Shown: piece by piece, positions 40,948 through 56,953 of the stretch
Layout: every line of letters starts with the position of its first letter
Numbering within the stretch: the first letter of the stretch is position 1
Origin: Flavihumibacter profundi
GTDB taxonomy: Bacteria > Bacteroidota > Bacteroidia > Chitinophagales > Chitinophagaceae
Length of the DNA stretch: 64,000 nucleotides
Assembly: GCF_020076305.1 (NCBI RefSeq)
Contig: NZ_JAIQXE010000003.1
Location: forward strand, 62,001-126,000
Direction of reading: 5' to 3'
The notes under the pieces: generated by a model
Databases searched by the model: none
What the model saw: the letters and a program-made list of their open reading frames with translations, nothing else
What the model was told of the DNA's origin: nothing
Position numbers and translations under genes: made by a program

Positions 40948-41847
40948 ATGAAGCCCTTTATTGAAAAACTACCCATCGAAACAGAAAATTCCTTCGTGGC
41001 ACGTACTTACCGCACTCCCCACTTTGAAGTTCCCTGGCACCAGCATCCGGAACTTGAACTGATTTTATTTACCGAAGGGGAAGGCAATGCTTTCGTTGGA
41101 AACCATGTTGGCAATTTCACCACCGGGGATATTTATTTTTTAGGCAGCAACCTGCCGCATACATTTCAGAAAGCAAATGATGACCTCATTACAGGTGCAG
41201 TTGTGGTGCAATTCCTGGGCAACTGCTGGGGCGACAAACTTCTGGAAATGCCGGAATGCCGCAGTGTAAAATTGCTTTTCGATACTGCAAATGCCGGAAT
41301 GAAACTGCACGGCGAGACCAGGGAACTGTTAATACCGCTGATTACACAACTGGAACATGCCACCGGAATTAATCGCATCCTGCTCCTTTGGCAATGCCTT
41401 GCGCTGATCAGTGCAAGAAAAGAATTTGAACTTCTATCTACCCAAAACATGGCCAACCTGCAAAGCCGCCTGCAGGCCCGGATCGATAAAATATTCCAGT
41501 ACACGATTGAACATTATGCCGATGGCATAACGCTTCAGGAGGTTGCCGACCAGGTAAATATGAGCACCCCGGCATTTTGCCTGTATTTCCGTAAGCATAC
41601 CAAAAAAACATATATCGAATTCCTGAATGAAGTGCGCATCGGGAAAGCCTGCCAGCAATTAATAGATACACAAAAATCGATCAGTGAAATTGCCTACGAA
41701 TGCGGCTACAATACACTTGCCAATTTCAATAAACAATTCCTGAAAATAAGGAATATGCAGCCGAGCCATTACCGGAAGGTATTTGCTGAGAGCACGGCAG
41801 TTAGCCATGAACACCTTGCAGCATCGGGAAAATCCTACTTTCCTTAA
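40948..41847 (+). CDS. AraC-family regulator with cupin sensor domain (likely xylose regulator)
   Basis: A 299-residue regulator. Residues about 20-100 form a cupin-like ligand-binding domain (PWHQHPELELILFTEGEG, GDIYFLGSNLPHTF). Residues about 190-285 carry the two helix-turn-helix motifs of AraC proteins (ITLQEVADQVNMSTPAFCLYFRK and SISEIAYECGYNTLANFNKQFLK). It is divergent from xylB, separated by 144 bp, so control of the xylose operon is the natural inference. The 144-bp gap is AT-rich and shows no clear palindromic operator. Confidence 0.88.
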   Translation: MKPFIEKLPIETENSFVARTYRTPHFEVPWHQHPELELILFTEGEGNAFVGNHVGNFTTGDIYFLGSNLPHTFQKANDDLITGAVVVQFLGNCWGDKLLEMPECRSVKLLFDTANAGMKLHGETRELLIPLITQLEHATGINRILLLWQCLALISARKEFELLSTQNMANLQSRLQARIDKIFQYTIEHYADGITLQEVADQVNMSTPAFCLYFRKHTKKTYIEFLNEVRIGKACQQLIDTQKSISEIAYECGYNTLANFNKQFLKIRNMQPSHYRKVFAESTAVSHEHLAASGKSYFP

Positions 41848-41880
41848 CAGCCGCTTAACGCTGGTTAATACTGCGTTAAG
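41844..41880 (+). promoter_or_regulatory. TTAAC tandem array A, upstream of the GH18/CE4/GT2 gene
   Basis: Half-sites begin at 41844 (TTAAC), 41855 (TTAAC), 41865 (TTAAT) and 41876 (TTAAG), spaced 11, 10 and 11 bp. The first overlaps the AraC gene's last codons. The core also forms an inverted repeat, GCTTAACGC (41853-41861) with GCGTTAAGC (41873-41881). It ends 67 bp before the downstream ATG. Proposed binding site of the OmpR-type regulator encoded at 47110. Confidence 0.7.
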
Positions 41881-41946
41881 CAGCCCTAAATCACCGTCCG
41901 GGCGGTTTTTATTGAGTTGCTTTGTATTTGGAAAAAGCAACATATT

Positions 41947-44900
41947 ATGTCATCTACACGCCAGATTTTTCATACCGGGTCAAATAGAAGATGGGCCCGC
42001 TTTAAATGGAGCCTTGGTTTATTACTGGCACTTATTTCCATTTTGCTGCTGACGCTTATCGCTTCCCTCTGGATGAATTACCATCCGGATCTGCCGGTAT
42101 TATACAACCGCAACGAACAATTGAAAAGCATTTTGAAGCCTAATGAAAATTTTATACTTGAAAATAAAATAAACAGGGAATACGCAGGGTTCAGGTCCTT
42201 TATCGCCGAAAGAAAGGACAGCATGGAGAATAAGCAGTCCTGGGTAAAATCGAACCAGTCGGCACCGGTAAGGGCTGCTTTCTATGTTGCCTGGGATGCA
42301 CAATCTTATTTCTCCCTGCGTAATAATATTTCCAAATTAAATATGGTATTGCCGGAATGGCTTTTTATTGACCCGAATGCAGATACTGTTTATACAAATA
42401 TTGATCAACGTGGATTAAAAGTGATCCGGGAATCAGGCGTGCGCATTGTCCCGATGTTGTCCAACTTCTTCAATAACGATTTCGATGGCGAAGCCGTTCA
42501 CCGGATCATATCTAATCCCCTCAAAAGAAAACAGGTTATCGCCAGTGTTCTCAATATTTTGCTATCTAATCATTTCGACGGCATTAATGTCGACTTTGAA
42601 GAGCTAAAGGAAAAAACAGATGAAAACCTGGTTGCTTTCCAACGGGAACTGTATACTGCTTTGCACCAGAAAGGCCTGCTGGTAAGCCAGGATATATCGC
42701 CATTTAATGAGGACTACAACTACCGCGAACTGTCCCGCTACAATGACAATATCTTCCTGATGGCCTATGACGAACACAATTCAGAAAGCAAACCCGGACC
42801 TATCAGCTCCCAAAAATGGATTGAAGCTGCAATGGATGCAGCCGCCAGTGAAATACCTTCCGAAAAAATCATCCTCTGCATTGCCGCTTACGGTTATGAT
42901 TGGCCGAAAGGTGGGGCAGGCACTGATATTACCTACCAGGAGGCATTGACAACAGCCTCAGAAAGTGATGCAAAGCCTGAATTTGACAATGATACCTACA
43001 ACCTGCATTATACGTATTACGATGACAATAACCTGGAACACGAGGTTTATTTCACCGATGCTGCCACAAACTTCAATACGCTGCGGTTTGCTGCAGAATA
43101 TGGCATAAGCGGGGTTGCCATGTGGCGGCTCGGCAGTGAAGACAGCAGGCTTTGGCAATTCTATGATAATGACGCTACAAAAGCCGGATTGAAAAACTTT
43201 GACCTTGCTGCACTGAACCATGTGAAGGAAAGCAATGATGTGGATTATATCGGCGAAGGGGAAATCCTGGATGTAAAAAGCAATCCGACACCAGGAAAAA
43301 TAGCTGCTGAAATAGATTCATCAGAACTGCTTATCAGTGAAGAAAAATACATCAGCCTGCCCTCAATGTTTGTGGTAAAAAAATTCGGCACCGCCAATAA
43401 GAAAATAGTCCTGACTTTCGATGATGGTCCTGATCCGACTTATACGCCAAGGATCCTGGACATCCTCCACAGGGAGCATGTTCCGGCGGCTTTTTTCATG
43501 GTTGGCCTGAATGCTGAAAATAATATTCCACTTGTAAAGCAGGTTTATTCCGAAGGCCATGAATTGGGAAACCATTCCTTTACACACCCTAATATGGCAG
43601 AAGTGAGTACAACCAGGGCCGAACTGGAAAGGAAGCTCACCCGTTTACTCATTGAATGTATTACCGGGCATAGTACACTTTTATTCAGGGCGCCTTATAA
43701 TGCGGATAGCGAGCCGGAAACCATGGAAGAATTAAAACCTGTGGCAGATAGCAGGGTCGATAATTACCTTACTGTCGGGGAAAGCATTGACCCGAATGAC
43801 TGGGAACCAGGTGTAACCGCAGATACCATCCTGAGCCGGATAATCCAACAGCAGAAAAATGGCAATATCATTTTATTGCACGATGCCGGTGGTAACCGGG
43901 AAGCTACCGTACAGGCTTTACCCCGGATTATTGAATACTTTAAGGGACAAGGTTACCAATTTACTACAGTAGCAGGTTTGCTGGGTAAAAAAGAGCTGGA
44001 CCTGATGCCTGCTGTTCCCCAAAAAAGCGGGTTCTATTTGATTAAGGCCAACTACTTTCTGGCAGACATCGGGTATTATCTATCAAGGTTCCTGAACATT
44101 CTCTTCTTCTTATTCATTGCAGCAGGTGTATTAAGGCTATCAATAATGGCCGTGCTGGCACTTAAAAAAAGAAAAAAAGACAGGGAAGCATTACCATTGG
44201 CAAACCTGGCCCAACCTTTTGTTTCAGTAATTATACCCGCTTACAATGAGGAGGTAAATGCGGTGCGGTCCCTTGACCTTTTACTGCAAACTGATTACCC
44301 GAATATTGAATTCATATTTGTTGATGACGGCAGCAAAGACAATACCTATGATAAAGTATGGACTGCGTTCCATATGAATAAAAAGGTAAAAATACTAAGG
44401 AAACCAAATGGCGGTAAAGCTTCGGCGCTCAATTACGGCATACAGGAATCCACTGCAGAATTTGTGGTATGCATCGATGCTGATACGCACCTGTTGCCGG
44501 ATGCCATCAGCAGGTTAATGGAAAATTTCACCCATCCAAATGTGGGTGCTGTTGCCGGGCAGGTTAAAGTTGGCAATGAAGTGAACCTTCTGACCCGGTG
44601 GCAGAGCATAGAATATACAACCGCCCAGAACTTCGACCGACAGGCTATGGCCGCTGTTAATGCAATTACCGTAGTTCCGGGAGCTATTGGCGCTTTCAGG
44701 AAAGAAGCCTTGCTGAATGCTGGCGGGTTCACAACAGATACCCTTGCCGAAGATTGTGACCTGACCATCCGGATGCTGTTAAAGGATTATACAGTTACTG
44801 AAGATAGCAGGGCCATTGCAATAACAGAAGCCCCTGAATCTTTATCAATGCTCTTAAAACAACGATACAGATGGAGTTACGGCGTGCTTCAAACCAGCTG

Positions 44901-45324
44901 GAAACATCGGAAAGCACTTTTTAATACCCGTCATAAATGGCTTGGCTTTTTTGCCTTGCCCAATATCATCCTTTTCCAGTTTATCATCCCGGTATTTGCA
45001 CCAATCGCCGACCTGCTGATGATTATTGGCTTACTCACAGGCAATGAAGGCAAGATTATACTGTACTACCTTCTGTTTATGCTCATTGATCTGAGTATTG
45101 CCCTGATGGCCTTTATCCTGGCCGAAGAACCGGTTTATAAACTTCTATGGCTGCTGCCACAAAGGATTATCTATAGGTGGCTAATGGTATGGGTCCTGTT
45201 CAAATCATATTTCAGGGCCCTGAAAGGGGAATTACACAGCTGGGGAGCTTTAAAAAGAACCGGGAATATAGGCCCAGACACCATTTTTAAAACACCGGGA
45301 AAAGACCCGGTTCCACAAGGATAA
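41947..45324 (+). CDS. Trifunctional GH18 / NodB deacetylase / GT2 exopolysaccharide synthase
   Basis: A 1125-residue membrane protein with three enzyme domains, counted from the ATG at 41947. After a transmembrane helix (about 21-43), residues about 105-425 are a GH18-like glycosidase with the catalytic motif FDGINVDFEE (E218). Residues about 480-680 are a CE4 polysaccharide deacetylase: TFDDGPD (490-496), HSFTHP (543-548), LFRAPYN and ILLHDAGG. After another helix (about 712-738), residues about 757-1000 are a GT2 synthase (IIPAYNEE, FVDDGS, IDADTHL, EDCDL, QRYRW) followed by C-terminal helices. It is suited to making and partly deacetylating a beta-linked GlcNAc-type polymer. The upstream in-frame start at 41917 is less likely. 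Confidence 0.9.
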   Translation: MSSTRQIFHTGSNRRWARFKWSLGLLLALISILLLTLIASLWMNYHPDLPVLYNRNEQLKSILKPNENFILENKINREYAGFRSFIAERKDSMENKQSWVKSNQSAPVRAAFYVAWDAQSYFSLRNNISKLNMVLPEWLFIDPNADTVYTNIDQRGLKVIRESGVRIVPMLSNFFNNDFDGEAVHRIISNPLKRKQVIASVLNILLSNHFDGINVDFEELKEKTDENLVAFQRELYTALHQKGLLVSQDISPFNEDYNYRELSRYNDNIFLMAYDEHNSESKPGPISSQKWIEAAMDAAASEIPSEKIILCIAAYGYDWPKGGAGTDITYQEALTTASESDAKPEFDNDTYNLHYTYYDDNNLEHEVYFTDAATNFNTLRFAAEYGISGVAMWRLGSEDSRLWQFYDNDATKAGLKNFDLAALNHVKESNDVDYIGEGEILDVKSNPTPGKIAAEIDSSELLISEEKYISLPSMFVVKKFGTANKKIVLTFDDGPDPTYTPRILDILHREHVPAAFFMVGLNAENNIPLVKQVYSEGHELGNHSFTHPNMAEVSTTRAELERKLTRLLIECITGHSTLLFRAPYNADSEPETMEELKPVADSRVDNYLTVGESIDPNDWEPGVTADTILSRIIQQQKNGNIILLHDAGGNREATVQALPRIIEYFKGQGYQFTTVAGLLGKKELDLMPAVPQKSGFYLIKANYFLADIGYYLSRFLNILFFLFIAAGVLRLSIMAVLALKKRKKDREALPLANLAQPFVSVIIPAYNEEVNAVRSLDLLLQTDYPNIEFIFVDDGSKDNTYDKVWTAFHMNKKVKILRKPNGGKASALNYGIQESTAEFVVCIDADTHLLPDAISRLMENFTHPNVGAVAGQVKVGNEVNLLTRWQSIEYTTAQNFDRQAMAAVNAITVVPGAIGAFRKEALLNAGGFTTDTLAEDCDLTIRMLLKDYTVTEDSRAIAITEAPESLSMLLKQRYRWSYGVLQTSWKHRKALFNTRHKWLGFFALPNIILFQFIIPVFAPIADLLMIIGLLTGNEGKIILYYLLFMLIDLSIALMAFILAEEPVYKLLWLLPQRIIYRWLMVWVLFKSYFRALKGELHSWGALKRTGNIGPDTIFKTPGKDPVPQG

Positions 45325-45341
45325 AACTTAACCAGATAAAT

Positions 45342-45369
45342 AAAGCCATTCACTTGCGTGAATGGCTTT
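45342..45369. terminator. Bidirectional hairpin terminator
   Basis: Perfect 12-bp arms, AAAGCCATTCAC at 45342-45353 and GTGAATGGCTTT at 45358-45369, with a 4-bp loop and flanking A/T. It sits between convergent genes and can serve both strands. Confidence 0.88.
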
Positions 45370-45403
45370 CTACGTATCAAACCATTGGGTACTTGCTGGA
45401 CGC

Positions 45404-45652
45404 TTAGTTCTTCTTTGGAGCTGGCTTAGTTTCAGTAGTAGCCTTTGTTGAGGTAGTAGTTTTTGCTGGGGTTGTTGTCTTTGTTGAGGTACTTGTCTTT
45501 GTTGAGGTAGTTGTCTTAGTGGATGTTTCTTTCTTTTGTGCCTCAGTTTTAGTGGCGGGCTTTTCTGTTGTTTTAGCAGCCGGTGTTGTCTGGGCAAATC
45601 CAATTCCTACCGTGGCAAGCAGCATGGAAGCTGCTAATACTAATTTTTTCAT
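45404..45652 (-). CDS. Small secreted Thr/Lys-rich protein
   Basis: An 82-residue protein with a clear signal peptide (MKKLVLAASMLLATVGIGFAQ), leaving a mature chain of about 61 residues made almost entirely of Thr, Lys, Ala, Ser, Pro and Glu in short repeats such as STKTTT and TKTEAQKK. It should be disordered and strongly cationic. No family is recognised. It is divergent from the histidine kinase gene, and the TTAAC array B lies between them, 87 bp from its start, so shared control is possible. It may coat or crosslink the envelope, which is speculation. Confidence 0.75.
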   Translation of the reverse strand: MKKLVLAASMLLATVGIGFAQTTPAAKTTEKPATKTEAQKKETSTKTTTSTKTSTSTKTTTPAKTTTSTKATTETKPAPKKN

Positions 45653-45738
45653 TTTTCGAAACTTTAATTTTTTAAAATAATCTGGTTAATAACAAATATT
45701 ATTCAAACTTCCTGCCTAATCCAAACATTCGGGCATGG

Positions 45739-45775
45739 TTAACCGGGCTTTAACCAGGGTTAACCAATTGTTATG
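45739..45775 (+). promoter_or_regulatory. TTAAC tandem array B, upstream of the histidine kinase gene
   Basis: Half-sites begin at 45739 (TTAAC), 45750 (TTAAC), 45760 (TTAAC) and 45771 (TTATG), spaced 11, 10 and 11 bp, the same phasing as array A. It ends 61 bp before the kinase ATG and fits autoregulation of the two-component system. The divergent small secreted-protein gene could also be controlled from here. Confidence 0.72.
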
Positions 45776-45836
45776 GTAAAAAACCGGGTATTCAAGCCTT
45801 ACAAGGGGAAGCTATTTTATACGACATTTGTTACTC

Positions 45837-47108
45837 ATGCGGTCATCAACTACCCGGATATTAATACTTCTCCTGGCAATTACTATCGCAGCCATCATTG
45901 GCCTCCAGATTCACTGGCTGCAAAAAACCTATGCCTTTGAAAAAAATGTATTCAACACCTCGGTGATAAAAAGTATACGCGGACTTTATGAAGACATGGA
46001 CCTGACCCATGAACCCGGCAGCCACCTGAGCTCTTTAATTGAACATCCCAATCCAAATATCTTCCTGTTTAAAATTGATAGCATACCCCAAAAAGACAGC
46101 CTTGCTTATTACCTCAAAAATGAATTCGAAGATTTTGATGTGTATACAGATTGCCGGGTAGCTGTATATAATTATTCCCGGCAAGGTTTTATTTATGAAT
46201 CCGTCATTACAGCTACTGCACCAGGAAAAAAATTTACCGGTATGGCGCAATTGGTTCCGGTAAAAAAGGATTTCTCCTACGTTTACCTTTTCTTCCCCAA
46301 CCGTAACCGCTACATTATAACCCAAATGAATGCCTGGATACTTACCAGCTCATTATTGCTCCTGTTGCTTATTGGATTTTCATTCGCGATTTACTACCTC
46401 TACCAGCAAAAATTCCTTAATGAAGTGCAGAAAGATTTTATCAATAACGTAACCCATGAATTTAGCACCCCGCTAATGGTTATCGACTTGTCTACTGATG
46501 CACTTACCAAACAATCGGTTTTACAGCAACCTGAAAAAATCGCCAAATACGCCAATTCAATCAGGCACCAGAGCGACTACCTGAAAAGCCATATCAAAAA
46601 CCTGATTAACACTGTTGTGGCCGACCAGTATACTTTCGCCATTAAAAAGACCGCGGTAATTCCTAATGAACTGATCAGGCAGGCTGTACTCCAGTTAGAC
46701 CCTATAGTAATGGATAAAAAAGGAGTAATAGAACTCAACCTTGAAGAAAACAACAAGGTAATCCAGGCTGATAATGAAAATCTTTACCTGGCCCTTTTTA
46801 ATATTATCAACAATGCCCTGAAATACGCAACCCAACCGCATGTAATTATCAATACTTATTCCCATAACAGCCACTATTATATCAGCATAAAGGATAACGG
46901 TATTGGCATTGACGCAGTTGAACTAAAGAAAATATTCAAGAAATTCTACCGTGGACAAAAAGGCAACCTGCATAACTCAAAAGGGCTTGGACTTGGCCTT
47001 TATTTTACAAAAAAAATAATTTCCCTGCACCACGGAAACATACACGTAAACAGCATCCCCGGCATAGGCACTGATTTCACAATTGAATTACCAGTAAACA
47101 ACATCTAA
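45837..47108 (+). CDS. Sensor histidine kinase of the envelope regulon
   Basis: A 423-residue kinase. Transmembrane helices at about 7-24 and 164-187 enclose an extracytoplasmic sensor of about 140 residues with no recognised fold. There is no obvious HAMP domain. The dimerisation motif is NNVTHEFSTPLMVIDL (His about 207), and the ATPase domain shows NIINNALKYA, KDNGIGID and GLGLGLYFTKKI. A TTG nine bases upstream is in frame, but the ATG at 45837 is preferred. The stop is one base before the response-regulator ATG, so the pair is co-translated. Confidence 0.92.
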   Translation: MRSSTTRILILLLAITIAAIIGLQIHWLQKTYAFEKNVFNTSVIKSIRGLYEDMDLTHEPGSHLSSLIEHPNPNIFLFKIDSIPQKDSLAYYLKNEFEDFDVYTDCRVAVYNYSRQGFIYESVITATAPGKKFTGMAQLVPVKKDFSYVYLFFPNRNRYIITQMNAWILTSSLLLLLLIGFSFAIYYLYQQKFLNEVQKDFINNVTHEFSTPLMVIDLSTDALTKQSVLQQPEKIAKYANSIRHQSDYLKSHIKNLINTVVADQYTFAIKKTAVIPNELIRQAVLQLDPIVMDKKGVIELNLEENNKVIQADNENLYLALFNIINNALKYATQPHVIINTYSHNSHYYISIKDNGIGIDAVELKKIFKKFYRGQKGNLHNSKGLGLGLYFTKKIISLHHGNIHVNSIPGIGTDFTIELPVNNI

Positions 47109-47109
47109 A

Positions 47110-47814
47110 ATGGAAAGCAAAGCAAGAATACTACTCGCAGAAGATGACGCAAGCCTGAGTGAATTAATGAAGGAAGCCCTTGAAGATGAAGGCTATACTG
47201 TGGAAATTTTTTCCAATGGACAGGAAGCCATAAATAATTTCGATAAACATAAATACGATATATGCCTCCTGGATATCATGATGCCTGTTAAAGATGGCTT
47301 TATGGTGGCCAAAAAAATAAGGCAGGTTTCCGATATCATCCCTATCTTATTTATCAGCACAAAAGGCCTTGAAGAAGATAAATTAAAAGGTTACCAGACA
47401 GGCGCCGACGACTATATCACTAAGCCTTTCAGCATGAAAGAACTGCTGATGAAGCTGGATGTTTTCCTGCGCCGTACCCGGAAAATGTTTTACGAAACCA
47501 AACAGGAATACCAGATCGGGAAAATCCATTTCTCCTATACCGATTTAAAACTGAAAAGTCCTGCCGGGGAATTTGACATGAAGCAAAAAGAAGCTGACCT
47601 TTTAAAATTCCTGTGTGAACATGCTAATAAGGTGTTGCGCAGGGATGAAGTTTTACTGGCCGTCTGGGGCAAGGACGATTTCTTCCTGGGCCGAAGCATG
47701 GATGTATACATGACAAAAATCAGGAAATACCTGAAAGCAGACCCGGATATTATAATTGAAACAATACATGGGCTTGGCTACAGGTTTACAGTGCCTGGGT
47801 TAACAGAGCAATAA
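47110..47814 (+). CDS. OmpR-family response regulator (candidate TTAAC-array binder)
   Basis: A 234-residue regulator. The receiver domain shows AEDD (10-13), phospho-acceptor D55 (ICLLDIMMPVKDG) and the Lys in DYITKPFSMKELL. A winged-helix domain occupies about 135-230 (FDMKQKEADLLKFLCEHANKVLRRDEVL, SMDVYMTKIRKYL, IIETIHGLGYRF). It resembles the RprY type of Bacteroidota. OmpR-type regulators bind tandem half-sites roughly one helical turn apart, which matches the four TTAAC arrays in this neighbourhood, including one before its own operon. Confidence 0.93.
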   Translation: MESKARILLAEDDASLSELMKEALEDEGYTVEIFSNGQEAINNFDKHKYDICLLDIMMPVKDGFMVAKKIRQVSDIIPILFISTKGLEEDKLKGYQTGADDYITKPFSMKELLMKLDVFLRRTRKMFYETKQEYQIGKIHFSYTDLKLKSPAGEFDMKQKEADLLKFLCEHANKVLRRDEVLLAVWGKDDFFLGRSMDVYMTKIRKYLKADPDIIIETIHGLGYRFTVPGLTEQ

Positions 47815-47891
47815 TGCCCCTTTTTACGCCTGCATGATTATTTCACTGCTGGCATTTCAGGAATTCAAACACCTCAAAACCTTAACATATA

Positions 47892-48446
47892 ATGATACTG
47901 AGAATTAACCTGGTACTGGTACTTTCAATATTATTAATTACCCAAAACTGCAAAGCCCAAAACCTAATGCACTACGCTGCCGACGGCCAGCTCCTGCACA
48001 GTACACATGGCACTAACTACTGGGGATTCAGCCTTTCAGCCGAGCGTTTAGTTAGCCCCGTTACCAGCCTGGGAATAGGCGCCGAATATTCCTATTGCTC
48101 TTACCATGAAGACAATGGCTGGAATTTGACCAACCTGAATTTTTTCCCGGTCTATGTACAGGAACGGTTTAGCCTTTTTCCCAAAAGCAGGCTGCAGCCA
48201 TATATCCGCCTTGAAGAAGGCGTTAGTTTCAACAATTACAATAAGGAACTTCAAAATGCTAATGAAGGTATCCAACATGTTTATGAAGCGGGTATTTATG
48301 GGCACATGGGTATTGGTATAATCTGGCTGAAGGTGAAAAAAACGAGCTGCTATCTGGAAGCAGGACTAAAGTCTTATAATATCACCTTTGATAACCTCGA
48401 TGTTAACCCACATGGTTTTACTGCCAGGATAGGCTTAACAATTTAA
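47892..48446 (+). CDS. Small outer-membrane beta-barrel protein, unknown function
   Basis: A 184-residue protein with a signal peptide (cleavage near CKAQ). The rest has alternating hydrophobic and polar residues, many aromatic, and ends in a typical last barrel strand (GFTARIGLTI). It probably forms a small eight-stranded barrel. No family is recognised. It follows the response regulator by 77 bp and precedes TTAAC array C. Confidence 0.65.
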   Translation: MILRINLVLVLSILLITQNCKAQNLMHYAADGQLLHSTHGTNYWGFSLSAERLVSPVTSLGIGAEYSYCSYHEDNGWNLTNLNFFPVYVQERFSLFPKSRLQPYIRLEEGVSFNNYNKELQNANEGIQHVYEAGIYGHMGIGIIWLKVKKTSCYLEAGLKSYNITFDNLDVNPHGFTARIGLTI

Positions 48447-48472
48447 TAACTGTTTTAAATTCAACGGCTTGC

Positions 48473-48508
48473 TTAACCTGCTTTTAACCAACAATAATTG
48501 CAGTTAAC
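48473..48508 (+). promoter_or_regulatory. TTAAC tandem array C, upstream of the tolC-type operon
   Basis: Half-sites begin at 48473 (TTAAC), 48484 (TTAAC), 48494 (ATAAT, weak) and 48504 (TTAAC), spaced 11, 10 and 10 bp. It ends 45 bp before the downstream ATG at 48554. Proposed target of the OmpR-type regulator at 47110. Confidence 0.68.
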
Positions 48509-48553
48509 TTAATCGCATAGCAGTTTTGCATTTGTAAACAAAATTTGTTACCG

Positions 48554-49828
48554 ATGCGACGTATACTGCTATTGCTGACTGTACCTTTATGCTTACTGCA
48601 GTCCAGGTCCACAGCCCAATCGAGCCCGGATACCATAAGACTGAGTATACCGGAAGCCGAAAAATTATTTCTTCAAAACAATCTTTCTTTACTCGCTGCC
48701 AAATACAATATCGATGCGAATAAAGTATTGATCCAGCAGGCTAAACTTTGGGATAATCCTACATTAATTACTGACCAGAATATTTATGACGGGAAATTTT
48801 TCCGCCATTACGGCGATTATGGCCAGATATTTATACAGGTCCAGCAACTGATCAGAACTGCAGGTAAAAGATCAAAGCTGGCGAAACTGGCCGAAGACAA
48901 TACGGCAATATCGCAGGAACAATTTGAAGATCTGCTTCGGAGCTTACGCTACACCTTACGCGCAGATATGCTCGATATCTGGCAGCTTGAAAAAGTCATT
49001 CGCGTTTATACCAACGAAATTAATGAAGTTTCAAAACTGGTGAAGGGCATGGATGAAGTGTACAAAGCAGGCAACATTTCCCTTAAAGACAATATGCGCC
49101 TGAAGGCCCTGCTTTTCAGCCTGCAGAATGAACTGGTCAATATCCAAACGCAAATGTTTCCGATCCAAAGCGAAGTCAAACTGTTATTGCAATCAAAAGA
49201 TTCGGGCTTCATCCAACCCAATTTCACCTACGAACTTCCTGTGTTGATTAACTCTTCGCTTCCCCCTATAGATACGCTGATTGCGCAGGCTATGGAGAAC
49301 AGGCCGGATGGAAGGCTGGCAAAAAAAGCGCTTGAATTCCAGCAGCACAACCTTACTTACCAGAAAGCACTGGCCAAACCTGATGTTACGGTAGGTCCGG
49401 AATATGACCAGCACAGCAGCTATGTACCCAATTACGTTGGTCTTACCGTTTCTTTACCCCTGAATATTTTTAACAGGAACCAGGGCAATATCAAATCTGC
49501 CGAATATGGCATTAAATCCCAACAGAGCCAGGTTGACCAGGAAACCGACCGCATCAGAAATGAAGTACTCAGCAGCTACTCCAAGGTGAAGTACCTGCAG
49601 GGTATCAATAATCGCGAACAATTGGTTTTTGCAACCGATTATGAAAAGCTTTTCCAGAACATGGTGAAAAGTTACCAGGACAAGCAAATCAATTTGCTGG
49701 AATTCACCGACTTCCTGGATGCCTATAAAGACACGAGGCTGAAAATTGTAGACCAGCACATCAACCTCGTAAAATCATTTGCAGAATTGAATTACGTGGT
49801 AAACAATACGATCATCCCTATACAATAA
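48554..49828 (+). CDS. TolC-family outer-membrane factor of a metal-efflux RND pump
   Basis: A 424-residue protein with a signal peptide (about 1-20) followed by SPDTIRLSIPEAEKLFLQNNLSLLAAKYN, the usual TolC-family opening, and long helical repeats. It would form the outer-membrane channel of the pump encoded by the next two genes (gaps of 18 and 53 bp). The start is set at the ATG 48554 rather than the in-frame TTG at 48545. The two-repeat helical structure is typical of CusC-like proteins. Confidence 0.9.
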   Translation: MRRILLLLTVPLCLLQSRSTAQSSPDTIRLSIPEAEKLFLQNNLSLLAAKYNIDANKVLIQQAKLWDNPTLITDQNIYDGKFFRHYGDYGQIFIQVQQLIRTAGKRSKLAKLAEDNTAISQEQFEDLLRSLRYTLRADMLDIWQLEKVIRVYTNEINEVSKLVKGMDEVYKAGNISLKDNMRLKALLFSLQNELVNIQTQMFPIQSEVKLLLQSKDSGFIQPNFTYELPVLINSSLPPIDTLIAQAMENRPDGRLAKKALEFQQHNLTYQKALAKPDVTVGPEYDQHSSYVPNYVGLTVSLPLNIFNRNQGNIKSAEYGIKSQQSQVDQETDRIRNEVLSSYSKVKYLQGINNREQLVFATDYEKLFQNMVKSYQDKQINLLEFTDFLDAYKDTRLKIVDQHINLVKSFAELNYVVNNTIIPIQ

Positions 49829-49846
49829 CAGATTATTTATCATTTT

Positions 49847-50953
49847 ATGAAGAATAAAATACTGCTGCCAGGCACTACCCTATTAACCTTGATTAGTTTA
49901 ATCTCCTGCCAGCCTAAAGAACCCGCAGAAGATAAAAAAATAAAAGAAGCGGTTTGTGTAACCGATTCTATGGCAAGTATCATACAAATTGACACAGCCA
50001 TCACCAGCAATATTAACGATGAAGTTAAACTGAGCGGCGAAGTCAATTTCAATGACAAAAAAGTGGTGAAAGTATATCCCTTCAGCAGCGGACAGGTTAT
50101 AAAAGTAATGGTGTCTCTTGGTGATAAAGTAAACGCCGGACAAACACTGGCCATCATTAAAAGTGCCGATGTTGCCGGAAACTATAGTGATCTTTCGGCC
50201 GCCTCCAATGACCTGGCTATTGCCAAAAAACAAATGGACAATGCAGAATCATTATTCAATAATGGAATTGCCAGTGAGCGGGAATTTATTGAAGCTAAAG
50301 AGAATTACAGCAAGGCTGTATCGAACGCCAATAAAATAAAAGACCAGATCAATATTAATGGCGGCGGGCACACTTCCGAAAATGGAACTTATGTAATTAC
50401 CGCACCTATGAACGGTTATGTTGTAGAAAAAAAGATAAATGAGGGAGGTTTTATACGGACCGACAACGGAGATAACCTTTTTACAATCGGCGACATCAGT
50501 GATGTTTGGGTATGGGCCAATGTGTATGAAACCGACATAGCAAAAGTTAAAGAAGGATATACTGCAAGGGTTACCACACTCGCCTATCCGGATTCTTCAT
50601 TCAACGGGGTTGTTGATAAAGTAAACCAGATACTGGACCCCGTAACCAAAGTAATGAAAATCAGGGTTCGCCTCCCCAATCCGGGAATGAAACTAAAGCC
50701 CGAAATGTTTGCCAATATCGCCATAGAAAACAAAGAAAGTAAAAAGGCGGTATCCGTTCCGGAACAGGCCCTCATAAATGATAATGGCAAGGTCTATTTA
50801 GTTATTTATGAAGACAAGTGTAAACTTTCCATTAGGCAGGTTGAAGTGATCAAGACAACAGCAGGTAGAGCATACCTGAAAAATGGCATTCAGGAAGGCG
50901 AAAAAGTAATTTCCAAAAACCAGATCCTGTTCTTCCGGGCCCTCACATCTTAA
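49847..50953 (+). CDS. RND efflux periplasmic adaptor lipoprotein (CusB/CzcB-like)
   Basis: A 368-residue membrane-fusion protein with a lipobox (ISLISC, Cys near residue 22). It shows the barrel-sandwich halves (VVKVYPFSSGQVIKVMVSLGDKVNAGQTLAII and VITAPMNGYVVEKKINEGGFI) around a short helical hairpin (about 110-160), then beta-barrel and membrane-proximal domains. No extra His-rich metal-binding extension is visible. It links the RND pump to the TolC-type channel. Confidence 0.92.
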   Translation: MKNKILLPGTTLLTLISLISCQPKEPAEDKKIKEAVCVTDSMASIIQIDTAITSNINDEVKLSGEVNFNDKKVVKVYPFSSGQVIKVMVSLGDKVNAGQTLAIIKSADVAGNYSDLSAASNDLAIAKKQMDNAESLFNNGIASEREFIEAKENYSKAVSNANKIKDQININGGGHTSENGTYVITAPMNGYVVEKKINEGGFIRTDNGDNLFTIGDISDVWVWANVYETDIAKVKEGYTARVTTLAYPDSSFNGVVDKVNQILDPVTKVMKIRVRLPNPGMKLKPEMFANIAIENKESKKAVSVPEQALINDNGKVYLVIYEDKCKLSIRQVEVIKTTAGRAYLKNGIQEGEKVISKNQILFFRALTS

Positions 50954-51006
50954 GTGCGGTATTCTCCCACAACATCCAATTATTCAGGCTTTAGAAATGC
51001 AGCAAT

Positions 51007-54000
51007 ATGAACAAGTTTATAAGAAGCATCATACATTTTTCACTGCGCCACCGGTACTTTGTTTTTTTCCTTACCCTGGTGCTGGTAGCAATCGGGGTAT
51101 GGAGTTACAAAGAAACACCCATAGAAACCTTCCCGGACGTTACGAATACGCAGATTGTTATTATCACCCAATGGCCCGGCAGGAGTGCTGAGGAAGTTGA
51201 GAAGTTCATTACTATTCCATTGGAAACAGTTTTGAACTCTGTTCAGAAAAAAGCCAACCTGCGTACAAACTCATCCTTTGGCCTTAGTTTTATTACTTTA
51301 ATTTTTGACGATGACGTAGATGATGCATTCGCCCGCCAGCAGGTGATGAGCCGTATTATCAACGCAGACCTGCCCGAAGGCATAAGGCCGGAAGTCCAGC
51401 CACCCTATGGCCCAACCGGTGAAATTTACCGGTATACACTGGAAAGCAAGATTAAAGATATTCGCGAGCTGACCGCCATACAGGACTGGGTATTAGACCG
51501 CCAGTTTAAATCGGTACCCGGAGTTGCTGATGTTAACAGCTTTGGGGGTGAAGAAAGGATTTTTGAAGTAAGCGTAAACCCCGACCTGCTGATTAAATAC
51601 AACCTGACTTCATTGGATGTTTATAACGCCGTTTCCAAAAGCAATGTGAACGTAGGCGGGGATGTCATCCAGAGAAACGGCCAGGCTTACGTTGTTCGTG
51701 GCATCGGCTTATTAAACAACATTGATGAAATAAATAATATTATCATCACTAAAATAAACGGGGTTCCCCTGCTGGTGAAGAATGTAGCCAAAGTAGTGGA
51801 ATCACATGCCCCTTTATTGGGCTCCGTTTCAAAAGATAATGTTGCCCACCAGATCGAAGGAATTATTGTTATGCGCAAGGGCGAAAACCCAAGCGAAGTG
51901 CTGGAGCGTGTTCATGCGAAAATCACCCAGCTAAACAAAAATATCCTGCCGAAAGATGTAAAGATTATTCCGTTCTATGACCGCACAGTGTTAATGGATT
52001 ATGCCACAGAGACTGTTATCCATAACCTTATTGAGGGCATAGTCCTGGTTACCGTTATTGTATTGCTTTTCATGGCCGACTGGCGCACTACCATTACTGT
52101 TAGCCTTATTATTCCGCTGTCACTCTTATTCGCATTTATTTGTATGCGGATTAAAGGAATGAATGCAAACCTGCTGAGTATGGGTGCGGTGGACTTCGGG
52201 ATTATCATTGACGGGGCCGTGGTAATGGTGGAAGGGCTCTTTGTTGCCCTTGACCAGAAGGCCAGGGAAGTGGGCATGGAAAAATTCAATAAGCTCGCCA
52301 AACTGGGTCTCTTCAAAAGCAAAGGAACTGAAATGGGTAAATCCATCTTCTTTTCCAAACTGATCATCATCACCTGCCTTATGCCCATTTTCGCCTTCCA
52401 GAAAGTTGAAGGGAAAATGTTTTCACCACTTGCTTACACCCTTGGATTTGCATTGCTTGGCGCCTTAATTTTCACACTTACCCTCGTACCCGCGCTCTCC
52501 AGTATTTTATTAAGGAGGAATGTCCGGGAAAAACATAACCCGATTGTCCTGTTTTTTGAAAAGGGAGTGGAGAAATTATTCAAGATCGTTTATGGTCACC
52601 AGAAAAAGAGTTTGCTGGTGGCTTTGGTAATTATGTTTTTATCCTTTCTTTCCTTCAAGTTTTTAGGATCAGAATTTCTTCCTCAGCTGAACGAAGGCGC
52701 TCTTTGGGTAACAGCAGAGTTACCAAGAAGTGTTTCGCTGGATGAAGCCGACAGCCTTTCCGATAAAATGGTGAAAATAATCGGCAAATTTCCAGAAGTG
52801 CGGCATACGCTTACACAGGTGGGTCGTACAAACGACGGAACAGACCCTAAAGGTTTCTTTAATGTTCAGGTTGCGGTTGACTTGCTACCCAAGGAACAAT
52901 GGACCAGGAAAATTACACCCGACCAATTGGTAGATGAGATGGATGCAAAGCTGAAGCAGTTCCCGGGAATTGTTTTAAACTATTCACAACCCATCCGGGA
53001 TAATGTTGCAGAAGCGGTGGCTGGCGTACCGGCTGCATTGGCAGTAAAAATTTTCGGACAGGATTTTAATGTCCTGGACAGCAGTGCCACAAGGGTAATG
53101 TCTATCCTGAAAGATATTAAAGGTGTGGAGGATTTGGGGGTAATCAGGAACCTGGGGCAGCTTGAATTCAGGATAGAACTGGACCAGCAGAAAATGGCAT
53201 TCTATGGTGTTAATACAGCAGATGCGAATGCCGTAATTGAAATGGCTATTGGCGGCAAAGCCGCTACCCAGCTTTATGAAGGTGAACGTAAATTTGATAT
53301 CCGCGTTCGGTACCAGGAAGATTACAGGGCCAGCCAGGAATCCATTGAAAACCTGATGGTACCAACCAATGATGGCAGCAAAGTTCCGCTTAAAGAAATA
53401 TCCGTTATCAAAACGCTTACCGGCCCGGGATTTATTTACAGGGATAACAACATGCGCTATATAACGGTAAAATTTTCTGTAAGGGGCCGTGACCTGGGAG
53501 GTACCGTAAAAGAAGCGCAGGAAAAAGTAGCCCAGGGGTTTTCAGTTCCGGCCGGTTATGATATGACCTGGAACGGGGAATTTGAAAACCAGCAAAGAGC
53601 CAGTAAAACACTTGCAAGGGTTGTGCCTATCTGCCTCCTGGTTATCTTCCTGATACTATTTATCACATTCGGTAATGTGAAAGATGCCATCCTGACCATA
53701 ATGAACGTTCCATTTGCACTCATTGGCGGAATTCTGGCACTGCACCTCACCGGGATCAACTTCAGCATCTCGGCAGGTATAGGATTTATCGCCCTGTTTG
53801 GCGTTTGTATTCAAAATGGGGTGATCCTGATCTCCGTGTTCAGGAAAAACCTGGATGCCGGAATGCACCTTGATGAAGCGGTTGAACAAGGAGTATTATC
53901 CCGCGTGAGGCCCGTAGTAATGACCGCTTTGATGGCTATGATCGGACTGATGCCGGCAGCAGTTTCAACAGGCATTGGCAGTGAAACCCAAAAACCGCTG

Positions 54001-54162
54001 GCCATTGTAGTAATTGGCGGGTTAATTACAGCTACCATTTTAACCCTTCTCATTTTGCCCGTTATTTATGCATTGGTATTCAAATTGATGCATGCACGCG
54101 AAAACAGGAAAATACTTCGCAAAGCCGGACTCGTCAGCAAAATGGACAAGTACAATGAATAA
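51007..54162 (+). CDS. Heavy-metal RND efflux pump (CusA/CzcA family)
   Basis: A 1051-residue inner-membrane proton-driven transporter with 12 predicted helices and two large periplasmic loops. The heavy-metal RND signature in helix 4, DFGIIIDGAVVMVEG (about residues 396-410), has the two Asp and the Glu expected for proton relay in this subfamily. The start MNKFIRSIIHFSLRHRYFVF is typical. Copper-type Met clusters versus divalent-cation residues cannot be assigned confidently by eye, so the metal (Cu/Ag or Co/Zn/Cd) is open. Third gene of the tolC-type operon. Confidence 0.93.
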   Translation: MNKFIRSIIHFSLRHRYFVFFLTLVLVAIGVWSYKETPIETFPDVTNTQIVIITQWPGRSAEEVEKFITIPLETVLNSVQKKANLRTNSSFGLSFITLIFDDDVDDAFARQQVMSRIINADLPEGIRPEVQPPYGPTGEIYRYTLESKIKDIRELTAIQDWVLDRQFKSVPGVADVNSFGGEERIFEVSVNPDLLIKYNLTSLDVYNAVSKSNVNVGGDVIQRNGQAYVVRGIGLLNNIDEINNIIITKINGVPLLVKNVAKVVESHAPLLGSVSKDNVAHQIEGIIVMRKGENPSEVLERVHAKITQLNKNILPKDVKIIPFYDRTVLMDYATETVIHNLIEGIVLVTVIVLLFMADWRTTITVSLIIPLSLLFAFICMRIKGMNANLLSMGAVDFGIIIDGAVVMVEGLFVALDQKAREVGMEKFNKLAKLGLFKSKGTEMGKSIFFSKLIIITCLMPIFAFQKVEGKMFSPLAYTLGFALLGALIFTLTLVPALSSILLRRNVREKHNPIVLFFEKGVEKLFKIVYGHQKKSLLVALVIMFLSFLSFKFLGSEFLPQLNEGALWVTAELPRSVSLDEADSLSDKMVKIIGKFPEVRHTLTQVGRTNDGTDPKGFFNVQVAVDLLPKEQWTRKITPDQLVDEMDAKLKQFPGIVLNYSQPIRDNVAEAVAGVPAALAVKIFGQDFNVLDSSATRVMSILKDIKGVEDLGVIRNLGQLEFRIELDQQKMAFYGVNTADANAVIEMAIGGKAATQLYEGERKFDIRVRYQEDYRASQESIENLMVPTNDGSKVPLKEISVIKTLTGPGFIYRDNNMRYITVKFSVRGRDLGGTVKEAQEKVAQGFSVPAGYDMTWNGEFENQQRASKTLARVVPICLLVIFLILFITFGNVKDAILTIMNVPFALIGGILALHLTGINFSISAGIGFIALFGVCIQNGVILISVFRKNLDAGMHLDEAVEQGVLSRVRPVVMTALMAMIGLMPAAVSTGIGSETQKPLAIVVIGGLITATILTLLILPVIYALVFKLMHARENRKILRKAGLVSKMDKYNE

Positions 54163-54230
54163 ATTAATATCAGCATAACGATCGCATCGGCGACAAATGC
54201 TGGAATGCCCTGCATTCCACGTCACCGAAC

Positions 54231-54260
54231 GGGCGCCGTTTTTACGGTGCCCTTTTTTTT
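54231..54260 (+). terminator. Rho-independent terminator after the RND pump gene
   Basis: Stem GGGCGCCGT (54231-54239) with ACGGTGCCC (54244-54252), one G-T wobble, followed by eight T. A second hairpin, TGGAATGC/GCATTCCA (54201-54219), lies just before it. Confidence 0.9.
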
Positions 54261-54268
54261 ATTCAACC

Positions 54269-54304
54269 TTAACCGCCGGTTAACCATTGTTAAGCAATAA
54301 TAAC
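54269..54304 (+). promoter_or_regulatory. TTAAC tandem array D, upstream of the mprF operon
   Basis: Half-sites begin at 54269 (TTAAC), 54280 (TTAAC), 54290 (TTAAG) and 54300 (ATAAC), spaced 11, 10 and 10 bp, the same phasing as array C. It ends 45 bp before the ATG at 54350, the same distance as in array C. A TAATTTTA element at 54327-54334 could be the -7 site. Confidence 0.7.
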
Positions 54305-54349: not shown

Positions 54350-56953
54350 ATGCTTGCAGTAAATAAGGACAAACTGGTTCAGTTCTTTCGAAACATCCAT
54401 TGGAAAGAATTATTGGCTGTTCTTTTCATCCTTGTCGGCATTTATTTTTTCCGCCAGGAAAGACATGAATTAAGTTCTATTATCCCATATATCGAACAAG
54501 CCAATAAAAACTGGCTGCTAGCCGGTTTTGCAATTACTTTGGTCTATATCATTTTGCAAACGGGGCTTTTTGTTTACAGTTTCAAATCAATACAATCTAC
54601 CCTTCACTGGCTGCCTGCCGGCCAGCTTTTCCTGAAACGGAATTTTATAAGCACTTTCCTTCCTGGCGGTGGTATTACAGCATTTGCTTACCTGCCTTCA
54701 ATGCTGCGCAAGGAAAATATCGAGCGCCATAAAGTTTTCCAGGGCGCTGGTATGCAGGGATTCATCGGCATTGCTTCTGTAATACTGGTAGGCTTACCCG
54801 TTATATTGTATACGATATTCCAGCAACAGCATATTAAAGGTGCAGTTTCAACACTTATTACCGTAATTATTCTTTTGGCTGTATTAATTTTTGCGCTGGC
54901 AACCTTTCGGAAAAAGGGCCGTTTGCACCAGGTTTTTGTTCGGTATTTCCCCCAGGCTGAAAAACACCTCGAAGACTTATTTTCATTTAACCTTGCATAC
55001 AGGCCACTGGTAATCGCCATTCTGTTTTCCGTTGCCATTGAACTGGCAGGCATCCTTCACCTGTATATCGCCATGCGGGCAATAGGGGTTCAGCCTTCCT
55101 GGGAAGCGGCTTTCACGGGTTATATTATTTCTACACTGTTCCTGGTCATTTCACCCTTTTTAAAAGGTCTGGGTGCTGTTGAATTATCACTCACCTATAT
55201 CCTGAAGCTGTATGGATTCACCACCATGGAGGCCCTTGAAATCACTTTACTATACCGGCTCTTCGAATTTTGGCTGCCCTTACTCGCCGGCTTCCTGGCA
55301 TGGGCCTGGAAAGGCAGGCATTTGTTTTTGCGTTTACTCCCGCCTACCCTGATTTTCCTCCTGGGAATGGTCAACATTTTCTCTGTATTAACACCACCTG
55401 TAGCTTCCCGTATGCGGCTGCTGAGGGAATACCTGCCTTTGGGATCAATCCATGCTTCCAATTGGATGATCATATTAACCGGGCTTGTATTGTTGGTTAC
55501 CGCGGCTTTTTTATTCCGCGGACTAAAAGGGGCCTGGTGGCTGGCTGTGCTGTTTTCTTCTTTGTCGCTTTTGGGACACCTTACGAAAGCGCTTGATTAC
55601 GAAGAAGCAATCCTGGCATTTTGTATAGTCATTGTTTTGCTGCTCACAAGAAACCAATACAGGCAAAAAAGCAATTCAAAATTTATAAATATCGGGGTAG
55701 TTACAGCGTTGGCTACATTCGTAGTGGCACTTATCTTTGGCGCTATTGGATTTTATTACCTCGATAAAAGGAACTTCGGGATTGATTTCAGCTTTCAGCA
55801 ATCTGTAAAATATGCCTTCAACAGTTTCCTCCTAATCGCAAACGACGACCTTGTGCCCATAACCAGGTTTGGCAATGAATTTATTGTATCCCTTAAAGTA
55901 TTAGGATCCGGTGCCTGGATATTCCTGCTATACACGATCGTCCAGCCATTCATCCACCCCAAAGGAACGGGTCTGGAAGCGCGTGAAAAAGCAAAATTCC
56001 TGCTAAGCCAATACGGTAATTCACCAGTCGATTTTTTCAAGGTGGATGCTGATAAATTGCTGTTCATCTCAGACCATTATGAAGGTTTTGTAGCGTATAA
56101 AGTTGCTAATGGATTCGCTATCGTACTGGAAGAACCCGTATGTGCCGAATCTGATAAAACTTTAATACTGAATGAATTTGAAATACAATGCCGGAAAATG
56201 GGATTAAAACCCGCTTTTTACCGGATTGATGAAGAGAGCCTCTACTATTTTGATGAACTCAAAAAGAAAAAATTATTAATCGGGCAGGAAGGCATTATGT
56301 CCATAAAAGACTTCACACTGGAAGGAAAACAAAACAAGTCGCTGCGCAATGCATTAAACAGTTTAACAAAAAAAGGGTATACCCTGAAAATCCATACTGC
56401 GCCTTTGTCCGGCTCCCTGGTAAATGAACTGAAAGCCGTTTCCGATGCCTGGCTTACAGCTTACAATAAATCTGAAATCGTGTTTTCGCAGGGCATGTTT
56501 GATCCAAGGATAATCACCAACCAGGATATCATTGCCCTGCATGACAGCGATAATATGGTGGTGGCCTTCCTGAATATCATACCCGATTACACACCAGATG
56601 AATGCACGTATGACCTTATCCGTAAGACGGAAGATGCTCCCGGTGGCAGCATGGATGCCCTGTTGCTTAAATTGGCCGAATACGGAAAAGAAAAAGGCCT
56701 GAGTTACCTGAACCTCGGACTGGTTCCGATGTCTGGTATAACCCAGCCTGAGAATACCGCTGAAAGGGTGGTAAAATATGCCTATGAAAAAATCAAGCGG
56801 TTCCGTCATTACCAGGGCCTGCGGGAATTCAAGGAAAAATATGCTACCGAGTGGGTTAATAAATACCTGGTCTATGAAAATGACTTTGACCTGGTACAGC
56901 TTCCTGCCGCACTGAATAAAGTGATGCAACCTGAAAAAATGCCTGGCATATGA
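54350..56953 (+). CDS. mprF: MprF-like aminoacyl-phosphatidylglycerol synthase/flippase
   Basis: An 867-residue protein. The N-terminal roughly 500 residues hold about 13-14 transmembrane helices forming the flippase (LLAGFAITLVYIILQTGLFVYS, FLPGGGITAFAYLPSMLRKE, LGAVELSLTYIL). The C-terminal DUF2156/GNAT-like synthase domain (about 545-860) shows KFLLSQYGNSPVDFFKV, HYEGFVAYKVANGFAIVLEEPVC and LSYLNLGLVPMSGI. MprF adds Lys or Ala from aminoacyl-tRNA to phosphatidylglycerol and flips it, lowering surface charge and giving resistance to cationic peptides. The amino acid used is unknown. It overlaps the hydrolase gene by 4 bp. Confidence 0.9.
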   Translation: MLAVNKDKLVQFFRNIHWKELLAVLFILVGIYFFRQERHELSSIIPYIEQANKNWLLAGFAITLVYIILQTGLFVYSFKSIQSTLHWLPAGQLFLKRNFISTFLPGGGITAFAYLPSMLRKENIERHKVFQGAGMQGFIGIASVILVGLPVILYTIFQQQHIKGAVSTLITVIILLAVLIFALATFRKKGRLHQVFVRYFPQAEKHLEDLFSFNLAYRPLVIAILFSVAIELAGILHLYIAMRAIGVQPSWEAAFTGYIISTLFLVISPFLKGLGAVELSLTYILKLYGFTTMEALEITLLYRLFEFWLPLLAGFLAWAWKGRHLFLRLLPPTLIFLLGMVNIFSVLTPPVASRMRLLREYLPLGSIHASNWMIILTGLVLLVTAAFLFRGLKGAWWLAVLFSSLSLLGHLTKALDYEEAILAFCIVIVLLLTRNQYRQKSNSKFINIGVVTALATFVVALIFGAIGFYYLDKRNFGIDFSFQQSVKYAFNSFLLIANDDLVPITRFGNEFIVSLKVLGSGAWIFLLYTIVQPFIHPKGTGLEAREKAKFLLSQYGNSPVDFFKVDADKLLFISDHYEGFVAYKVANGFAIVLEEPVCAESDKTLILNEFEIQCRKMGLKPAFYRIDEESLYYFDELKKKKLLIGQEGIMSIKDFTLEGKQNKSLRNALNSLTKKGYTLKIHTAPLSGSLVNELKAVSDAWLTAYNKSEIVFSQGMFDPRIITNQDIIALHDSDNMVVAFLNIIPDYTPDECTYDLIRKTEDAPGGSMDALLLKLAEYGKEKGLSYLNLGLVPMSGITQPENTAERVVKYAYEKIKRFRHYQGLREFKEKYATEWVNKYLVYENDFDLVQLPAALNKVMQPEKMPGI

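Follow-up and report, generated by a model that had tools for sequence, protein, structure and literature searches.

What do four closely similar arrays of TTAAC-like half-sites do in a single gene region of Flavihumibacter profundi, and which protein would read them? The arrays lie in the window, that is, the whole stretch of 64,000 nucleotides analysed (assembly GCF_020076305.1, contig NZ_JAIQXE010000003.1, positions 62,001 to 126,000), around the genes of a sensor histidine kinase and an OmpR/PhoB-type response regulator. They are, with good confidence, predicted to be the operators of this RprY-like regulator (47110–47814), which would activate its own operon and an envelope regulon. The computed evidence comprises the array positions and their clustering within the genome, the co-occurrence of the pattern with the kinase, the reappearance of arrays in front of related genes and a preferred spacing to a TTTG motif.

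Direct reading of the forward strand confirmed the four arrays at the positions and with the spacings of the original prediction, a model's reading of the same DNA. Array 1 (41844..41880, TTAAC/TTAAC/TTAAT/TTAAG) and array 2 (45739..45775, TTAAC/TTAAC/TTAAC/TTATG) are spaced 11-10-11 and precede a GH18/CE4/GT2 fusion gene and the kinase gene, respectively. Array 3 (48473..48508, TTAAC/TTAAC/ATAAT/TTAAC) and array 4 (54269..54304, TTAAC/TTAAC/TTAAG/ATAAC) are spaced 11-10-10 and precede an efflux operon and mprF. The gaps between arrays 1–4 and the ATG codons at 41947, 45837, 48554 and 54350 were measured as 66, 61, 45 and 45 bases, in agreement with the 45–67 bp given earlier. The TTAA core is intact in 13 of the 16 half-sites (4, 3, 3 and 3 for arrays 1–4), one more than the 12 previously counted, and the full TTAAC in 10. 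Each array scores 18 of 20 letters, and elsewhere in the window a score of 16 was reached only near 23651–23696 and 35767; 20 random first-order Markov sequences of 64 kb, read on one strand each, gave six arrays at 16 and none above. The arrangement is that of an OmpR/PhoB-family operator: half-sites in tandem, spaced by roughly one turn of the helix, in front of predicted targets.

The rarity of the arrays was then assayed over the 4.87 Mb genome (six contigs), using a rule that asks for four TTAA cores, allows no more than one mismatch and was chosen so that all four window arrays pass. Only six places matched, four of them the window arrays. The 11-10-11 spacing occurred at four places, each read on both strands (arrays 1 and 2, C1:2052037 and C1:1606115), and the 11-10-10 spacing at two, arrays 3 and 4, on one strand each. 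For 11-10-11, the reversed-pattern control gave 2 strand-matches vs. 8 real ones. Since the reversed controls were not empty, a few sites of such quality are expected by chance and their bare number is unimpressive; it is the clustering before gene starts, rather than the number of sites, that stands out. Four of the six sites fall inside 12.5 kb, with a chance of about 1e-6 if six sites were randomly scattered. A looser scan for three half-sites with two mismatches produced 35 matches vs. 41 in the reversed control, so its additional matches were treated as noise. Outside the window, C1:2052037–2052073 is the fifth TTAAC-type array of the genome and lies 68 bases before a DegT/DnrJ/EryC1 aminotransferase gene. 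The array at C1:1606115–1606150 is flanked, as judged by eye, by another kinase-like frame on one side and on the other by a second TolC-like frame, which an adaptor-like frame follows. It was not counted in the regulon because, read toward the TolC-like gene, it consists of TTAAG half-sites at 11-11-10; it is perhaps part of a parallel two-component/efflux module of similar design.

If the regulator reads the arrays, the pattern should travel with its kinase, and co-occurrence was quantified in 147 genomes of the family, 29 of which were classed as kinase-bearing (full-length match, identity of at least about 35%, 284 bits). The exact 11-10 pattern, TTAAC-N6-TTAAC-N5-TTAA, was found in 26 of the 29 kinase-bearing genomes vs. 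14 of the 118 others (p ~1e-15, Fisher test, which counts related genomes as independent). With the same half-sites at a control spacing of 11-11, the counts were 5/29 vs. 22/118 (p = 1), indicating that the phasing rather than the base composition tracks the kinase. Because the kinase cut had been set after part of the data was seen, the count was redone at other cuts, and the pattern was present in 28/35 vs. 12/112 genomes at a looser cut and in 21/23 vs. 19/124 at a stricter one; when the own genome was dropped, it was present in 25/28 vs. 14/118. Consistently, the reversed-pattern control for both spacings gave 63 real vs. 8 control matches in kinase-bearing genomes, and 51 vs. 62 in the others. 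Beyond the family, the kinase was detected at E <= 1e-85 in one (G407) of 294 other genomes of the class, a sample with few own-family genomes.

Arrays at 11-11 were also seen in their own right: G094 and G039, genomes without this kinase, carry several 11-11 TTAAC arrays, which possibly belong to another regulator with the same half-site. At C25:321-423 of G030, a TTAACCATGCT head-to-tail tandem repeat of exactly 11 bases mimics an 11-11 array.

Arrays before corresponding genes of relatives were evaluated in stretches of at most 20 kb around each of 40 kinase homologues. Of these, 29 belong to the clade and come from 28 genomes, one of which has two copies; the other 11, distant at 28–34% identity and part of those available, served as controls. 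Including the own locus there are 30 clade loci, one of which is truncated upstream, leaving 29 scorable before the kinase. In the 350 bases upstream of the kinase, a score of at least 17 was reached in 15/29 clade loci (own included) and of at least 16 in 18/29, in contrast to 0/11 distant homologues at 17 (maximum 14) and 2 of 580 shuffles at 16 or above. Similarly, the roughly 400 bases after the regulator scored at least 17 in 11/30 clade loci vs. 0/11 distant ones, and shuffles of this stretch reached 16 in 3 of 600 cases and never more. Behind these 11 arrays lie nine TolC/adaptor/RND operons, one other HlyD-type adaptor gene and one mprF; the array is present in 9 of the 10 relatives' loci where TolC directly follows the regulator. 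The GH18/CE4/GT2 fusion gene was preceded by an array of at least 17 in 7/18 scorable loci of kinase-bearing genomes, and in kinase-less genomes by none at 17 in 30 loci (maximum 16). In one of the seven (G028) fusion gene and kinase have a single array in common. The controls for the GH18 fusion and mprF were drawn from 80 of the 118 kinase-less genomes, of which 32 had a GH18 match and 30 loci were scored; dropped as truncated upstream were 1/19 GH18 and 3/12 mprF loci of kinase-bearing genomes and 1/10 mprF loci of the others. The position of the fusion gene varies among relatives, being upstream, divergent or elsewhere in the genome, and with such variable gene order the boxes are not explained by a single conserved DNA stretch.

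Remote exact 11-10 arrays of kinase-bearing genomes were found before further genes. In G040 and G130 they precede GH18 fusions, and in G040, G130 and G086 ornithine/arginine-decarboxylase-type genes (Pfam on G040 only), which would fit an acid response. Long TonB-receptor-like genes follow such arrays in G126, G085, G029 and G021 (Pfam on G126 only) and a BatD-type gene in G100; for other remote arrays, among them those of G035, G127 and G126 C22, no convincing gene was found behind them. In two genomes of one genus (G102 and G002, Pfam on G102 only) a DUF1003 gene near the kinase has an array, and in G122, a kinase-less but incomplete genome, an array precedes a TolC/adaptor/RND operon on a short contig.

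The make-up of the arrays and their promoter geometry were examined in alignments. In 24 aligned rows, picked by their half-sites, these were strongly conserved and the spacers were not; the spacer exceptions were a C after half-site 1 (17 rows) and a G before half-site 3 (18 rows). The far lower conservation of the spacers indicates that the arrays are not copies of one repeat. TTTG, which forms the core of the -7 element in Bacteroidota (TAnnTTTG), starts 51–53 bases downstream of the array start in 13 of 30 aligned rows vs. 0.5 expected. These rows are not independent: one array enters twice, in different registers, and several pairs share a genus. At this distance the last half-site would lie about where a -33 element is placed, the geometry of an activator in contact with RNA polymerase.

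The kinase and the presumed reader of the arrays are encoded behind array 2. The histidine kinase (45837..47108, forward strand, 423 amino acids, PF00512 and PF02518) appears, by eye, to span the membrane twice, its two helices enclosing about 130 periplasmic amino acids, and the regulator (47110..47814, forward strand, 234 amino acids) carries a receiver and a Trans_reg_C winged helix (PF00072 and PF00486, over cut-off), the composition of the OmpR/PhoB family. Its nearest NCBIfam model is RprY (NF051850), at 256.6 bits below the cut-off of 370. When 29 sensor regions were aligned, E52, D53, E96 and D99 were conserved in at least 90%, and no invariant His, Cys or Met was found. The heavy-metal models TIGR01386/TIGR01387 failed for both proteins (kinase 85.2 vs. 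292.55, regulator 128 vs. 279.2 bits), and a copper-sensor reading was rejected on these two grounds. A sensor region with conserved acidic residues but no invariant His, Cys or Met weakly favours protons, divalent cations or cationic peptides over copper-type metals. The metal-efflux theme of the original prediction is thus not sustained; the RND protein passes the CusA/CzcA cut-off, but the two-component pair stays under the heavy-metal ones.

From these data the following mechanism is proposed. The kinase would detect envelope stress and phosphorylate the regulator, whose dimers would line up head to tail on four TTAAC(C) half-sites that lie on one DNA face, about one helical turn apart. 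The array, just upstream of a Bacteroidota-type -7 element and overlapping or replacing the -33 region, would then recruit RNA polymerase. Activation of the kinase/regulator operon itself would provide positive feedback, and the further targets would be a divergent gene for a small basic protein, the TolC/adaptor/RND pump and the GH18/CE4/GT2 enzyme, in this genome also mprF/acvB and perhaps the remote DegT aminotransferase gene. We infer binding, its dependence on phosphorylation, activation over repression and the signal; cationic or acid envelope stress is the leading candidate for the last, a tentative choice. The claim that the regulator autoregulates and controls all four units was upheld by comparison for its own operon, the efflux operon and the GH18 fusion, and these same three units withstood the scans for random placement of the pattern and for its conservation before orthologous genes; for mprF/acvB it stays weak (1/9 loci at 17 or above).

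Several observations weigh against this interpretation. A typical TTTG occurs only at array 3, at position 52 from the array start; array 4 has TTTA, and arrays 1 and 2 have neither. Array 1, whose first half-site overlaps the stop codon of an upstream AraC-type gene, is separated from the fusion gene by a weak terminator-like hairpin (41893..41906, forward strand), perhaps the end of the AraC unit; this is a pattern match only, and such matches numbered 26 in the region vs. 19.9 in shuffles. For the 11-10-10 spacing, the reversed control in the own genome gave 4 matches vs. 2 real ones. Upstream of the kinase, 14/29 clade loci stay below 17, including that of the congener G108 (16), and 11/29 below 16, while the kinase orthologue of G407, outside the family, has a best array of only 16 before it. 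The stretch right after the regulator in the window scores only 12; a 184-amino-acid open reading frame intervenes and leaves array 3 outside it. No array of 17 was found for 11/18 scorable fusion genes. A GH18 fusion match was absent from 11, and an mprF match from 18, of the 29 kinase-bearing genomes. Of nine scorable mprF loci in kinase-bearing genomes, only the own one reaches 17 and one other 16. One further genome has mprF after the regulator, behind an array, and in G108 mprF directly follows the RND gene. The mprF arm of the regulon is thus barely conserved, and its array is almost confined to this genome.

The recognition helix (GRSMDVF/Y) is near-identical in distant RprY-like regulators and in a paralogue of the own genome at C2:866405, so the assignment of the box rests on co-occurrence and not on the helix. 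This paralogue is the genome's best RprY match, with a higher score than the regulator (308.8 vs. 256.6 bits) and likewise below 370, and the exact 11-10 pattern also occurs in the 14 genomes without a kinase orthologue. The arrays might accordingly be bound mainly by this or another RprY-/PhoB-like paralogue, with the kinase/regulator operon merely one target. However, the pattern tracks this kinase and the sites cluster around this pair, whereas the 3.7 kb of the paralogue locus held no comparable array (best 15), which makes a paralogue an unlikely main reader. About equally improbable is that the regulator binds the arrays but represses, by blocking RNA polymerase, as might be suspected from RprY of P. 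gingivalis, which the available text of PMC3646045 suggests to be a repressor and reports to have bound its own promoter; the arrays here lie upstream of TTTG at a near-constant distance and not over it, the geometry expected of an activator.

A phosphate-starvation role, with the arrays as Pho boxes of a PhoB-type regulator, was evaluated as well. A TTAACA repeat is known for PhoP of B. subtilis, for which no paper was located, and in PHO boxes the regulator sits head to tail on direct repeats with an 11-base unit (PMC4415409, in the part available). But none of the six genome-wide sites has a recognisable phosphate gene behind it, the genes there being the four window units, the DegT aminotransferase and the second TolC-like gene, and the regulator stayed under the cut-offs of two PhoB models (NF053854, 173.5 vs. 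270 bits; another, 163.2 vs. 296.2 bits). On these results the Pho-box reading was rejected as very improbable. Chance occurrence of A+T-rich half-sites in intergenic DNA could draw on the two-mismatch scan, which was the same as its control, and on the reversed controls of the stricter scans, which were not empty. Against it stand the clustering of the sites, their co-occurrence with the kinase and the two controls (11-11 spacing and reversed pattern) run on 147 genomes, which make it hardly credible; chance is refuted for the set as a whole, while single arrays, array 4 especially, could be idle. Operators of the RprY-like regulator encoded beside them remain the preferred interpretation of the arrays.

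A further candidate target, a small-protein gene overlooked in the original prediction, lies divergent from the kinase gene and has array 2 in common with it. The frame (45404..45652, reverse strand) encodes a low-complexity, very basic protein of 82 amino acids (isoelectric point about 10) with a signal-peptide-like start and a tail rich in Thr, Lys, Ala and Pro. Similar small basic frames, chosen by a composition filter and, for the tandem ones, by eye, adjoin the kinase in 16/30 loci, a count given with no background rate for such frames; some of those in relatives carry KKDGTPDKRYKENK-type repeats. The divergent arrangement was found in 10 loci (own included), with an intervening array of at least 17 in 9 of them. 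In the other 6 the small gene stands in tandem upstream of the kinase, and in all 6 an array starts 100–113 bases before it, scoring 15–17 toward the small gene and 17–18 the opposite way, while 120 shuffles reached at most 15. Asr is a small basic secreted acid-shock protein of enterobacteria. No Asr family match was obtained for the window protein or three scanned relatives. Pfam gave no family beyond chance for these four (E up to 0.01 for the window protein, up to 1 for the relatives), and NCBIfam no match for the window protein. As an analogy, the likeness to Asr lies in size, charge and secretion only.

These features can be joined in a wider proposal, which we put forward as doubtful. 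The near-invariant RprY-like helices of Bacteroidota would read TTAAC, and it would be the number and phasing of half-sites, rather than their sequence, that allot promoters to paralogues. The present clade, with four half-sites at 11-10-11/10, would run a positive-feedback acid/cationic-stress response whose primary effector might be the small, disordered, highly basic secreted protein encoded next to the kinase, an independently arisen counterpart of Asr.

The remaining genes, all on the forward strand, fill the predicted units. The fusion gene (41947..45324) encodes 1125 amino acids with GH18, polysaccharide deacetylase (CE4) and GT2 domains (PF00704, PF01522 and PF00535). The frame of 184 amino acids between the regulator and array 3 (47892..48446) is of unknown kind, with no Pfam or NCBIfam match and no match in the other 40 kinase loci. 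The efflux operon comprises a TolC-type outer membrane protein (48554..49828, PF02321), a CusB/HlyD-type periplasmic adaptor (49847..50953, PF16576; TIGR01730 over cut-off) and an RND pump of the CusA/CzcA family (51007..54162; TIGR00914, 974.4 bits vs. a cut-off of 701.45). A strong terminator-like hairpin with a T run (54231..54252, forward strand, a pattern match) separates this unit from array 4. Behind array 4, an MprF-like lysylphosphatidylglycerol synthase/flippase (54350..56953, PF09924 and PF03706) scored 536.1 bits under NF033480, whose cut-off is 600, and its LPG_synthase_C and transmembrane (TM) Pfam domains were over theirs. Its gene overlaps by 4 bases that of a VirJ/AcvB-like alpha/beta hydrolase (56950..57612, PF06057), followed by a frame of 330 amino acids (57623..58615) without an NCBIfam match, for which DUF4421 is the original prediction's name only. 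The product of the AraC-type gene at 40948 is another conceivable reader of the arrays; among the 40 relatives' kinase loci, this gene turned up in the congener G108 alone.

Tandem boxes read by OmpR/PhoB-type regulators are a known class of operator. The literature searched, half-site letters included, yielded neither this motif nor its phasing or regulon, and among the matches listed none looked relevant, which is not proof of absence. Among known systems, LpiA-AcvB operons likewise place an mprF-like synthase before a VirJ/AcvB-domain hydrolase, and lpiA and acvB form one operon in Agrobacterium (PMC13197417, available text); they differ in that an array in front of mprF is nearly restricted to the genome studied here. 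The adjacency of two-component genes and a TolC/CusB/CusA-type operon recalls CusRS/CopRS beside CusCBA, whereas the heavy-metal models failed here and the sensor region has no invariant metal ligands. PHO boxes, on which OmpR/PhoB-family regulators sit head to tail and contact sigma (PMC4415409, same part), have another half-site, and the first three units here are phased 11-10, with no phosphate genes behind the sites. RstBA is an OmpR/PhoB-type system with tandem 4-base sites; in the accessible portion of PMC4117788 the classic RstA box is TACA, N6, TACA, and both RstA and PhoB have sites in the asr promoter. In kind, the small basic protein encoded divergently from the kinase resembles Asr, but the half-site is another and the small proteins scanned gave no Asr family match. 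The nearest relation is RprXY of Bacteroides/Porphyromonas, RprY being the nearest NCBIfam family of the regulator, with the difference that the regulator, below the cut-off, ranks second to its own-genome paralogue. P. gingivalis RprY has been reported to bind its own promoter and to act in stress (PMC3646045, in part), and the targets named are chaperones (PMC3646045 and PMC6032018, in the portions available). A search of the main text of these two papers for the words consensus, binding site and motif gave no match. To such RprY-like two-component systems of Bacteroidota, the present analysis adds a concrete, phylogenetically supported predicted operator, together with a predicted regulon, a promoter geometry and a recurrent unannotated small protein.

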